A stretch of 37,919 nucleotides of DNA, from assembly GCA_943359365.1 (NCBI GenBank), contig CALRHG010000004.1, positions 1-37,919 of the forward strand, given 5' to 3'. The stretch is from Candidatus Nomurabacteria bacterium. GTDB lineage: Bacteria > Patescibacteriota > Minisyncoccia > Phycocordibacterales > UBA9973. Under the pieces are notes generated by a model that was not told where the DNA came from, did no database searches, and saw nothing but the letters and a program-made list of their open reading frames with translations. Shown here piece by piece: positions 31,544 through 35,900 of this stretch. Numbering within the stretch: position 1 is the stretch's first letter; every line of letters begins with the position of its first letter. The position numbers and the translations under genes were made by a program.

Positions 31544-31572
31544 AGTATATACCCCCTAGGGGGTATTGTCAA
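31544..31572 (-). promoter_or_regulatory. csoR promoter with embedded CsoR-type operator
   Basis: Minus strand TTGACA-17 nt-TATACT; spacer and -10 edge form the perfect 18-bp palindrome ATACCCCCTAGGGGGTAT (31549-31566). Confidence 0.9.
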
Positions 31573-31608: not shown

Positions 31609-31905
31609 TTACAAAGAGAGTTTATGTAAGATACGGCATGGTTCAACTATACGAGGATCAATAATGTTGTAATACCCATTGAGTCCATTGCGCCGCACGG
31701 TGACAAGTCTTGCATGTCGGAGAAGAGCTAAATGCTGAGAAACATTTGCCTTGCTGATGCCTAGCTCTTTTACCAAAGCTTCCACTGGCATTTCCTGCTC
31801 ACGCAACAAATTCAAAATCTCCAGACGCTTCGGGTTGGCTAAAATTTTATATGTTACGGCATTACGCTCATAAGCCGATCTTGGGAGTGGCCGTTTAATC
31901 TTCAT
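31609..31905 (-). CDS. ArsR-family winged-helix transcriptional regulator
   Basis: YKILANPKRLEILNLLREQEMPVEALVKELGISKANVSQHLALLRHARLVTVRRNGLNGYYNI. Confidence 0.92.
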   Translation of the reverse strand: MKIKRPLPRSAYERNAVTYKILANPKRLEILNLLREQEMPVEALVKELGISKANVSQHLALLRHARLVTVRRNGLNGYYNIIDPRIVEPCRILHKLSL

Positions 31906-31922: not shown

Positions 31923-31942
31923 AGTTGCAGAAAATTGCAACT
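31923..31942. promoter_or_regulatory. Putative operator AGTTGC-N8-GCAACT upstream of the arsR-like gene
   Basis: 20-bp palindrome AGTTGCAGAAAATTGCAACT, same arms and spacing as 35348-35367. Confidence 0.75.
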
Positions 31943-31944
31943 AG

Positions 31945-32466
31945 TTAGAAGTCTAACCCTTTCTTTGCTTTCTCGCCCTTTTGAAAAGGGTGTTTCATGG
32001 CTCGCATTTCTGTAACTAAACCGGCGCGCTCGGTTATTTCCCGCGGTGCATCTCGGCCCGTTGTAATAATATGTTCCACTTTGTTTTTGGCATAATCCAA
32101 AAAAGATATAGCCTGCGAAAGCGGTATTAAATTTAAGCTGATAGCATTGTGCAGTTCATCTAAAATGAGAAGGTGATATTTGCCGGAAGCAATTTCCTTT
32201 CTAGCTAAAACAAGACCTTTCTCCGCAGCTTTTCGGTGTTCTTCTATGGGTAAAGTGTCTCCCAAAATTCCCACAAATCCCTTGCCGGTTTTTATAATCT
32301 TAAAATCGGGCGAAAGGCGCGCTACAGACTTATGTTCGCCGGATTCCCACGGGCCTTTAATAAATTGCACCATAATAGCTTGTTTGCCCGCGCCTAAAAG
32401 CCTGAGCGCGTTTCCTAGAGCCGCCGTTGTTTTACCTTTTCCGTTGCCTGTAAATACTAAGAGCAT
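31945..32466 (-). CDS. cobO: Cob(I)alamin/corrinoid adenosyltransferase, CobA/BtuR/CobO type
   Basis: MLLVFTGNGKGKTTAALGNALRLLGAGKQAIMVQFIKG, LLILDELHNAISL, HIITTGRDAP; start set at 32466, adjacent to the RNR stop codon. Confidence 0.92.
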   Translation of the reverse strand: MLLVFTGNGKGKTTAALGNALRLLGAGKQAIMVQFIKGPWESGEHKSVARLSPDFKIIKTGKGFVGILGDTLPIEEHRKAAEKGLVLARKEIASGKYHLLILDELHNAISLNLIPLSQAISFLDYAKNKVEHIITTGRDAPREITERAGLVTEMRAMKHPFQKGEKAKKGLDF

Positions 32467-32467
32467 A

Positions 32468-34750
32468 TTATATTTCGCAGAGTCCGCCCACACAGGCAAG
32501 CTCTCGTTTAACTTCAGTCTCGTCGTCTTTTTCGTAGGTGACAATTTTAGAGAAGTCCAAGTCGCCCAAACGTTTTTTCATTTCGTCATATTTTTCTTTC
32601 GTAATTACCTGATAAGGAGAAAGTTGATATATATGATTTGATCGTGGAAGAAACGAAAGCCCGCCTACTAAATCCCAATTTTCATAAACCCAATTTGCGA
32701 CAGAAAGCCATTCCTCATCTCCGACAGAAACTGTAACTGACGGATTATGTTCCGTAAAATGTTGCTTTACGACTTTCCAATGTTCTAATTGAGCAATTGC
32801 ATCTATATCATTTTTACAAATAGCACCATCTGGAGCTTTCACTGGAAATTCAAGTACAAATGTTGTTGCAGTTAGAAGTGTTTGTCCGACTTCAGGAAAG
32901 TAGGGAACTCCTTGATCCTTGAGCATTTTAAAAAGCCCATCAGTAGCTGAAATACGAATACGGCGTATGTAATATGGCGCATGCCGAGGATGCATGCCGC
33001 TTGCGCAATCAACGGTTTGCGAAACTGTTCCTGATGGTTTTACACAGGTAATACATGTTGATTGACTGATGCCAAAACGCTTTGCGTATTTTTTGTTGGT
33101 TTCAATCGCCACCATTTTCATTTTTTCAAGAATTTTAGGATCACGGACTAATTCACAATCCCATTGTCCGGTAATTGATACGCCGAGAAGTCTTTCGCTT
33201 TCACAATTTTTCTTCCACTCTTTGGATAAGTATGGAAAGTAGGTGAGAGTTGATTGGTATGTTCCTAATATCGTCGCGATGCGGACTTTTTTAAGCAAAG
33301 TCTCCTCGGTGTCATCCGCGCGAGCGACGATTTCGGAAAGATTGCAAAACTGTTTTGACTGTAGGACGATTTCGCCGCAAGGATTTGTTCCCCATGACGG
33401 GTATATGCCACTCTTAAACTGATCGAGTCTTCTCTTTGGTAAAGTGCCCTGAAGTCCGCCGCGGTTAAATATTCCCCGCTCGCCTGAGCCGCTTTTCATA
33501 AGCGCCATCCATTCGTCGAGGAAATCTGTGGTTGTGGGTTTTGAAAGATATACCGCGGAATTGTTTGCGAGCATACGCTGTCCTTCAGAGATGTAAAATT
33601 GTCCTTTTTTTGAATCCCGAATCATTTCATCATCTAAATCAGAAAGTGAAATCATCGCGCTTCTGCGAACGCCTCCTGCCACGACACATTCACCTATTTT
33701 GCAAATAATGTCGTGCGCGTCTAGATTGGATAAACGTCTGCCTTCCCGACGGAGAATTCGTTCGCGAGCGAAATCAAGAAGCGAATGAAGCGGAGAAGGC
33801 CCCGAGCTTTTTCCTCCCATGGTTTTCAAACGCGAGCCGGCAGGGCGAATGAGAGAATAATCAAACATGATGTCACTTCCCGCAAACCATGTTTTGAGCC
33901 CCAGGGCAAACGCATCGGCCCAGCCTTCTTTGCTGTCTGGAATAATATACGGGGGTAATTTCTTGCCTGTTTGTTTTTGAATTTGCGGAAGCGCCTGGAT
34001 GTTTTCACTTTCTACTGACCAGCCAACGCCGGTTCCGCACATAGATATGTACATAATCTCGGCAAAATCCTGAAATGTTCTTGGTGCGATAAAAGAGCAA
34101 TTATAGGCGCAGACATTGGTCCTCCTCGCGGCCTTGCCTGCAAACTGGAGAAGCCGCATCGATGGCATTGCTTCTTGTTTCAAGATCGCTTCGCGAATTT
34201 CCGCGTATTCTGCTTCAGTAAGTTTGCCATTTTGATTATCACGCATAAAATCAATATAACGATCAATAGTTTCAATCCATGTTTCGCGCCGGCCTTCTTC
34301 GGGGATCCATCTGGCATATGTTCGGTAGTAAACAAATTCAGCAAGCGGATTTCTAAAATATTTTTTCCCTTCCGAAACGAGTTTTTTAACTTTCTCGGGC
34401 ACGAAACCAACTTTTTGCCGCACTAAAGACCTTTCTTTTCGATACAGAATGTAGGATTTTGCTGTTTGGAGGAAGTTCGCGGCGATAAGTTCGTTTTCTA
34501 CTATGTCTTGTATTGTTTCAACATGGGGAACAAATTTTTTGATCTTTTTTTCCTTCCTTAGCGTAATTAGCGCGTCCAAAACTTTATTCATGACCCCTCC
34601 GGCATATATCTCGTCGCCTTCTTTTACTGATTGCATCGCTCGGAAAACGGCGCGAGTAATGCGTTTTTCGTCAAAGGGAACAATCATTCCATCGCGCTTC
34701 TGTATGTATTCTAGTGAAGAATATTTTTTCCTATTTATATTGTTTTTCAT
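32468..34750 (-). CDS. nrdJ: Adenosylcobalamin-dependent (class II) ribonucleoside triphosphate reductase
   Basis: N-terminal ATP-cone-like segment, NPCGEIVLQSKQFCNLSE, CVKPSGTVSQTVDCASGMHPRHAPYYIRRIR, C-terminal CVGGLC. Confidence 0.92.
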   Translation of the reverse strand: MKNNINRKKYSSLEYIQKRDGMIVPFDEKRITRAVFRAMQSVKEGDEIYAGGVMNKVLDALITLRKEKKIKKFVPHVETIQDIVENELIAANFLQTAKSYILYRKERSLVRQKVGFVPEKVKKLVSEGKKYFRNPLAEFVYYRTYARWIPEEGRRETWIETIDRYIDFMRDNQNGKLTEAEYAEIREAILKQEAMPSMRLLQFAGKAARRTNVCAYNCSFIAPRTFQDFAEIMYISMCGTGVGWSVESENIQALPQIQKQTGKKLPPYIIPDSKEGWADAFALGLKTWFAGSDIMFDYSLIRPAGSRLKTMGGKSSGPSPLHSLLDFARERILRREGRRLSNLDAHDIICKIGECVVAGGVRRSAMISLSDLDDEMIRDSKKGQFYISEGQRMLANNSAVYLSKPTTTDFLDEWMALMKSGSGERGIFNRGGLQGTLPKRRLDQFKSGIYPSWGTNPCGEIVLQSKQFCNLSEIVARADDTEETLLKKVRIATILGTYQSTLTYFPYLSKEWKKNCESERLLGVSITGQWDCELVRDPKILEKMKMVAIETNKKYAKRFGISQSTCITCVKPSGTVSQTVDCASGMHPRHAPYYIRRIRISATDGLFKMLKDQGVPYFPEVGQTLLTATTFVLEFPVKAPDGAICKNDIDAIAQLEHWKVVKQHFTEHNPSVTVSVGDEEWLSVANWVYENWDLVGGLSFLPRSNHIYQLSPYQVITKEKYDEMKKRLGDLDFSKIVTYEKDDETEVKRELACVGGLCEI

Positions 34751-35292
34751 ACTCGTTTTGGATTAAAAATATTTATCAATGATTCTGTTTCAAATTTTTT
34801 ATTTTCAATAACGAATCTATAAATGAGAGGAGAAAGCACAATTGCAAAACCGATATTGCCTGCAAGATGAAGCAGGGTGAATGGAATTTGCCCAGTGAGC
34901 GCTTCCATAAATGGTTGGTGAAAAAATAGCGGTCCCACAGAAAGGCCGGTAACGATATCAAAAGCGAGTGTACCCATAATGGCAAACCTTGCATAATTCA
35001 ATGAGTTGTTGCTTCTTTTTTTAAAATAGATCGATGCCCATAATCCCAAAAGTCCATAGGTGCTGGCTGTTATAAAAGTCCACATCCCAACTTTGCCCGT
35101 TAAAACATCAAAGAGAACCATGCTCAAAAATGCGAATAAAAACCCTGCTATCTTTCCATAGGCTTTTGAGAACGGCATCACTGTTGCCAGAATCGGTTCA
35201 ATGTTTGGTGGACGAAACGGAATAAGCCGGATGAGTAGGCAGGCAATGAACCCAATAATGTATTTGAACCAATTCTTTTTGTATGCTTCCAT
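34747..35292 (-). CDS. ECF-type transporter S component-like membrane protein (putative corrinoid uptake)
   Basis: Hydrophobic; IPFRPPNIEPILATVMPFSKAYGKIAGFLFAFLSMVLFDVLTGKVGMWTFITASTYGLLG; ATGA overlap with nrdJ; start set at 35292 (MEAYKKNWFKY). Confidence 0.75.
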   Translation of the reverse strand: MEAYKKNWFKYIIGFIACLLIRLIPFRPPNIEPILATVMPFSKAYGKIAGFLFAFLSMVLFDVLTGKVGMWTFITASTYGLLGLWASIYFKKRSNNSLNYARFAIMGTLAFDIVTGLSVGPLFFHQPFMEALTGQIPFTLLHLAGNIGFAIVLSPLIYRFVIENKKFETESLINIFNPKRV

Positions 35293-35332
35293 GGTAAGAT
35301 TTGTTAAGACCGCTTGGCAACACTCCAAGAGG

Positions 35333-35385
35333 GGTGTATAATAGTATAGTTGCATAGTTTCGCAACTACTAAACCATTATACACC
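35333..35385. promoter_or_regulatory. Nested palindromic control region of the B12/RNR operon
   Basis: Outer 10-bp IR GGTGTATAAT/ATTATACACC (35333-35342/35376-35385); inner TAGTTGC-N8-GCAACTA (35347-35353/35362-35368) next to a TATACT -10 on the minus strand. Confidence 0.75.
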
Positions 35386-35438: not shown

Positions 35439-35900
35439 ATGACAAAAGAAGATTTAAAAAGGGAAGCGCTCAAATTTCTCGATAATCAAGTTACCGCCGC
35501 AGTTTCTACGGTATCTATGGATGGCGAACCCCAAGTGTCGACGGTGTATTATTATGCAGATGCTGATTTAAATTTTTATTTCATTACCGCCAAAGGTTCT
35601 AAAAAGTTAAAAAATATTGAGGCGAATAAAAAAGTTGCTATAGTTGTCGGATTTGGGCCCGCCCCCATTACTATTCAAGCTGGTGGAATTGCAGAAACAA
35701 ACCAAGATTTCAAAGAAGAATTTATTGATAAGATTTTTAAAAAAATAAATTTTCATACCTTAGACCAATTGCCGTTTTTAAACCTTGAAAAGGAAGGGCT
35801 TGTTATTTTCAAAGTTAAACCAACATGGCTGACTTTTTTAAATTTTGACAAAGAAGGTCATCCTGATACATACAGCCAGGATTTTAATAAATTGATATAA
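35439..35900 (+). CDS. Pyridoxamine 5'-phosphate oxidase-like (PPOX split-barrel) protein
   Basis: TAAVSTVSMDGEPQVSTVYYYADADLNFYFITAKGSKKLKNIEANKKVAIVV. Confidence 0.85.
   Translation: MTKEDLKREALKFLDNQVTAAVSTVSMDGEPQVSTVYYYADADLNFYFITAKGSKKLKNIEANKKVAIVVGFGPAPITIQAGGIAETNQDFKEEFIDKIFKKINFHTLDQLPFLNLEKEGLVIFKVKPTWLTFLNFDKEGHPDTYSQDFNKLI

Follow-up and report, generated by a model that had tools for sequence, protein, structure and literature searches.

Control of ribonucleotide reductase (RNR) is usually credited to NrdR or FNR-type proteins. NrdR is a general RNR repressor, a nucleotide sensor of the Zn-ribbon/ATP-cone type (PMC9110341), and in Pseudomonas aeruginosa the class II RNR is controlled by Anr/Dnr (PMC4860495). 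It has been reported that Lactobacillus delbrueckii carries an nrdJ-cbrS-cbrT-pduO cluster and that CbrT transports cobalamin with an ECF module; CbrT without the module did not support growth (PMC5997447). BtuM of Thiobacillus denitrificans is a solitary cobalamin S-component that transports without an ECF module, and its gene adjoins an adenosyltransferase that could trap cobalamin (PMC6072759).

In this study, we analysed a stretch of 37,919 nucleotides (the window) from a Candidatus Nomurabacteria genome of 664 kb in 46 contigs, 90.6% complete. The records related to this genome are Candidatus Nomurabacteria and other Patescibacteria, which are mostly uncultured and whose cofactor needs are poorly known. 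A literature search found nothing relevant on Patescibacteria with RNR and cobalamin, and no paper linking ArsR proteins to RNR choice.

Layout and content of the operon

The genes for an ECF-type S-component (34747..35292), NrdJ (32468..34750) and CobO (31945..32466) are packed head to tail, all on the minus strand. The S-component gene overlaps nrdJ by ATGA (GAGT-ATGA-AAA), and a single nucleotide separates the nrdJ stop from cobO (TAA-T-ATG), which runs from 32466 to 31945. An earlier note on this DNA had described the same compact layout and given the three genes these names; the coordinates agree, and so do our family searches. The S-component starts with the ATG at 35292, and aligned relatives begin MExYKKNW. 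A start at 35355 in a longer ORF was rejected, as it lies inside a palindrome (operator 1, below) and is not conserved.

NrdJ is an adenosylcobalamin-dependent class II RNR of the RTPR-like kind, with ATP-cone, RNR_Alpha, RNR-II insertion and barrel domains. It matched the RTPR model TIGR02505 with an E value of 6.8e-85 and a score of 286, which is below the cut-off of 340. Its C218, C458, C469, C753 and C758 align with those of the solved RTPR 1L1L and correspond to its three active-site and two C-terminal cysteines. CobO is a CobO/BtuR-type ATP:corrinoid adenosyltransferase that matched PF02572 (E 3.4e-52), carries the P-loop GNGKGKT and matches the solved BtuR/CobO structures 1G5R and 4HUT.

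The content of the operon is in itself a known arrangement, of which this is a new member: as in the L. delbrueckii cluster, an S-component, a class II RNR and an adenosyltransferase stand together. The two differ in that CbrT needs an ECF module, whereas the family studied here lacks EcfT; here, also, CobO may take the place of PduO, and there is an attached ArsR protein with candidate operators. What appears to be new from the sequences is a presumably solitary S-component in a whole EcfT-less family and putative ArsR operators tied to oxygen-independent RNRs.

ArsR, its candidate operators and the choice of RNR

Downstream of cobO lies arsR (31609..31905, minus strand), which, like two perfect palindromes in the window, had been overlooked in the earlier note. 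Its product is a 98-aa winged-helix regulator of the ArsR/SmtB type (HTH_5, E 9e-15; NF033788 over cut-off). In an alignment of 28 ArsR sequences, one Cys in the last, C-terminal helix is invariant and the classical metal-binding motif (ELCVCDL type) is absent.

Both palindromes read AGTTGC-N8-GCAACT. The first candidate operator (operator 1, 35348..35367) lies upstream of the S-component gene between divergent promoters and is flanked on both sides by inward-pointing TATAAT elements. One of these (35376..35381, minus strand), 8 nt upstream of the operator and recurring in relatives, is the candidate -10 of the S-nrdJ-cobO transcript. The other belongs to a promoter-like TTGGCA-17-TATAAT (35314..35342, plus strand; an 11-of-12 promoter match) that ends 5 nt before the operator. 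The divergently transcribed PNPOx-type flavoprotein gene (35439..35900, plus strand; PF01243, E 3.5e-14) is possibly under the same operator as S-nrdJ-cobO. In relatives this opposite position is taken by nirK, for a copper nitrite reductase (L141, L144, L155), or by a DoxX-like gene (L161, L205). The second candidate operator (operator 2, 31923..31942), between cobO and arsR, overlaps the promoter-like TTGCAA-17-TAAAAT of arsR (31940-31912).

In the source genome the motif occurs at these two places, and the degenerate form AGTTKC-N8-GMAACT gave no further place. The exact palindrome has 12 occurrences in 99 family genomes, and 11 of these precede S, arsR or a unit that contains arsR; its reversal, used as a control, turned up in two genomes, at one place each. 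Palindromes of this kind recur upstream of S in many genomes and before arsR in several. Among the other palindrome matches, those inspected in G039, G019 C4, G040 C6 and G164 C3 are away from RNR and B12 genes and were taken as chance; further matches are in G077 C18, G006 C10 and G164 C4. The palindrome and ArsR track the operon across relatives; they are absent from many nrdJ operons. From this pattern in sequence, ArsR very probably binds the palindromes.

The earlier note had suggested dependence on an external B12 supply, having seen no corrinoid synthesis gene. That observation holds for the whole genome (90.6% complete), in which corrinoid ring synthesis was not found and the sole tetrapyrrole-methylase homologue is RsmI. 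A class I RNR was found, with nrdA and nrdB on contig C14, nrdB being cut by the contig end. B12 is therefore not the sole route to dNTPs, and the claim in its strict form is weakened. Within the family, nrdJ and a class I RNR are almost mutually exclusive: among the 99 genomes, 57 have only nrdJ, 28 only class I, 9 both and 5 neither. ArsR was present in 7 of the 9 genomes with both and in 4 of the other 90 (Fisher 7e-7, kinship uncorrected). Exceptions include G024, with both RNRs and no ArsR detected, G019, with ArsR and no class I RNR, and G006 and G046, which carry ArsR and no nrdJ.

Among 23 genomes with this ArsR, nrdJ was close by in 15 and nrdD/nrdG in two; the remaining six, some at contig ends, had neither. 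In one of the class III cases (L096) arsR is the last gene of an nrdD-nrdG run, and operators precede both nrdD (two mismatches) and arsR (one mismatch); in the other (L123) it follows nrdG. ArsR-bearing operons are scattered on the NrdJ tree, including one in the most distant branch (L152), whose ArsR is 90% identical to that of the source genome. The link between ArsR and nrdJ is therefore not one simple inheritance.

Our main reading, to which we give a probability of about 0.62, is that the locus is a facultative B12-dependent dNTP operon with an ArsR switch to the oxygen-independent RNR. Unaided by an ECF motor, the S-component would let a corrinoid through the membrane; CobO would adenosylate it, which would also trap it inside the cell; and NrdJ would reduce ribonucleotides with the adenosylcobalamin. 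ArsR would bind the two identical operators, in the divergent promoter region of the operon and in its own promoter, and would repress both the S-nrdJ-cobO and the arsR promoters. Its release would come when conditions do not suit the oxygen-dependent class I RNR, as at low O2, in the presence of NO or in a changed thiol redox state. Gene identities, gene order, the putative operators and the co-occurrence can be read off the sequences, and the regulatory part of the reading is drawn from sequence and nothing else. The choice of O2, NO or redox state as the signal is a guess, for which we would give even odds.

As ArsR/SmtB proteins are often metal sensors, ArsR might instead sense a corrinoid or cobalt and tune B12 uptake and the B12-dependent enzyme to supply. 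The linked operons are indeed mostly B12-related, and in G227 a transcobalamin-like gene has an operator upstream. This explanation is nevertheless unlikely. ArsR also closes the B12-free class III nrdDG operons of L096 and L123, and since a class III RNR needs no B12, a B12 signal suits the pattern less than O2, NO or thiol state would. L097, moreover, has an operator next to nirK and a PNPOx-arsR pair, in a genome without nrdJ, and the single invariant Cys and missing metal motif also speak against a metal sensor.

The proposed ArsR switch resembles Anr/Dnr of P. aeruginosa in that an oxygen-independent RNR is brought in alongside denitrification (PMC4860495), but Anr/Dnr are activators with Anr/Dnr boxes, not ArsR-family proteins with AGTTGC-N8-GCAACT sites. 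NrdR likewise has palindromic boxes overlapping RNR promoters, and nrdR sits beside nrdJ-S-pduO in L218; it is unrelated to ArsR, whose product has neither a Zn-ribbon nor an ATP-cone domain, and it shows no link to the source-genome operon. With belief and doubt about balanced, we propose that this ArsR may be a dedicated, undescribed switch for oxygen-independent RNRs in Patescibacteria, acting through AGTTGC-N8-GCAACT operators on class III RNRs or on class II RNRs along with B12 uptake and activation, and sometimes on nirK, and kept mainly in genomes that also have a class I RNR. It makes the testable claim that Patescibacteria with two RNR classes hold a one-gene switch between them, and the operator, short and exact as it is, lends itself to reporter testing.

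The S-component and its probable substrate

The AlphaFold model of the S-component (pLDDT 90) has the six-helix S-component fold, and its best Foldseek matches are all S-components, FolT, RibU and PanT at the top. The S-component assignment at 34747-35292 thus stood in the structure comparison, while neither fold nor Pfam gave the vitamin. Foldseek places FolT and RibU above BtuM (probability 0.5) and was rejected for substrate assignment, since it shows the S-fold and does not discriminate vitamins; the Pfam matches are PF07155 (E 2.3e-8, over cut-off), a riboflavin label and the best one, and PF12822 (E 1.9e-5). A profile of 80 relatives searched against the whole PDB matched one chain, 6fnp_A of an ECF-CbrT entry, at a marginal E of 0.019.

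Genomic context is far stronger than fold or Pfam for a corrinoid substrate. Among the 99 family genomes, all 53 with the S-component also have nrdJ (53/53; Fisher 5e-16, kinship uncorrected). In 80 named loci with S, nrdJ was nearby in 59, PduO in 42 and CobO in 7, PduO and CobO never together. S also stands beside other kinds of class II RNR, of PRK06556 type in L204 and of TIGR02504 type in L218, where the order is nrdR-nrdJ-S-pduO. Some S homologues are apart from nrdJ; those family genomes carry nrdJ elsewhere. In many relatives, genes for DUF4430 (transcobalamin-type) surface proteins lie downstream of the operon, and 44 of 45 genomes with DUF4430 have S. The DUF4430 domain occurs in transcobalamins (PMC4350170). 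In one relative's DUF4430 surface protein an alpha/alpha toroid was found, with complement/A2M-type proteins and terpene cyclases as top folds. As the 50 best fold matches listed do not include transcobalamin, it is the DUF4430 domain that carries the transcobalamin reading.

As S occurs only in genomes with nrdJ, mostly has one adenosyltransferase nearby and is accompanied by DUF4430 in many relatives, corrinoid uptake is well supported, and the substrate is in all likelihood a corrinoid. The chain of import, adenosylation and use through S, CobO and NrdJ, put forward in the earlier note, is also well supported by gene content, conserved order and the non-orthologous exchange of PduO for CobO and of one class II RNR for another.

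A further explanation considered was import of riboflavin or some other vitamin by the S-component, its place beside nrdJ and the adenosyltransferase being incidental. The PF07155 match and the presence of TmRibU among the fold matches would fit this, but the riboflavin equivalog model scored 24 against a cut-off of 99, and a fragment of the B12-specific CbrT matches PF07155 too, weakly. An Rfam search of the window matched tRNAs only, with no riboswitch family, and riboswitch control was set aside. Given also that S occurs solely with nrdJ in the 99 genomes and is found with adenosyltransferases of either family and class II RNRs of several kinds, we regard riboflavin import as improbable.

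The source genome (90.6% complete) has no EcfT/CbiQ, which extends to the whole genome what had been noted for the window, an S-component without an Ecf partner. EcfT over the curated cut-off was found in 0 of the 99 family genomes; 9 of 14 control genomes passed. From the absence of EcfT across the family, the corrinoid S-component would have to work alone, like BtuM. As CbrT failed without its module, solitary function here is something we infer. BtuM is the nearest working model: it shares the S-fold, an organism without EcfT and an adenosyltransferase neighbour, and the consulted part of its report describes no nrdJ operon (PMC6072759). The two differ also in that the cobalt ligand of BtuM, Cys80 in loop 3, is not conserved, no Cys being invariant in the 80-row S alignment (the frequent C18 sits in helix 1), and the fold match is weak. 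That many Patescibacteria import B12 via an S-component without a motor is a testable claim.

Copper genes and other neighbourhoods

That ArsR belongs solely to the csoR-copA copper cluster, the palindrome before S being a coincidence, is very improbable, for although csoR-copA directly follow in the window and many relatives have copper genes next to the B12-RNR operon, csoR has an operator-like palindrome and promoter of its own, ArsR stands with nrdJ or nrdDG without adjacent copper genes in L099, L118, L154 and L167, and many genomes have such palindromes before S. The palindrome upstream of csoR-copA, ATACCCCCTAGGGGGTAT (31549-31566), is perfect, resembles a CsoR operator and lies over a TTGACA-17-TATACT promoter.

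Several further neighbourhoods were observed. A palindrome match precedes pyrD in G199 C10, a degenerate operator lies directly before pyrD in L132 (1501-1520), and a pyrD-like gene adjoins arsR in L123 (713-1942). A DUF6580 membrane protein gene lies beside genes for DUF4430/toroid proteins, nrdJ-cobO and arsR in L119 (10917-11447) and L122 (5261-5815); no S gene was seen at these two loci, and DUF6580 is a candidate alternative corrinoid S-component. The nrdJ-S locus of L206, labelled a Bacteroidetes MAG, nests within Patescibacteria on the tree, which likely reflects contamination or transfer. S homologues without a nearby nrdJ precede an aspartate carbamoyltransferase-like gene in L200, L217 and L220. 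More distant S homologues, in L068-L071, adjoin ligA (DNA ligase) and pilin-like genes in a conserved arrangement, and these genomes have nrdJ elsewhere.
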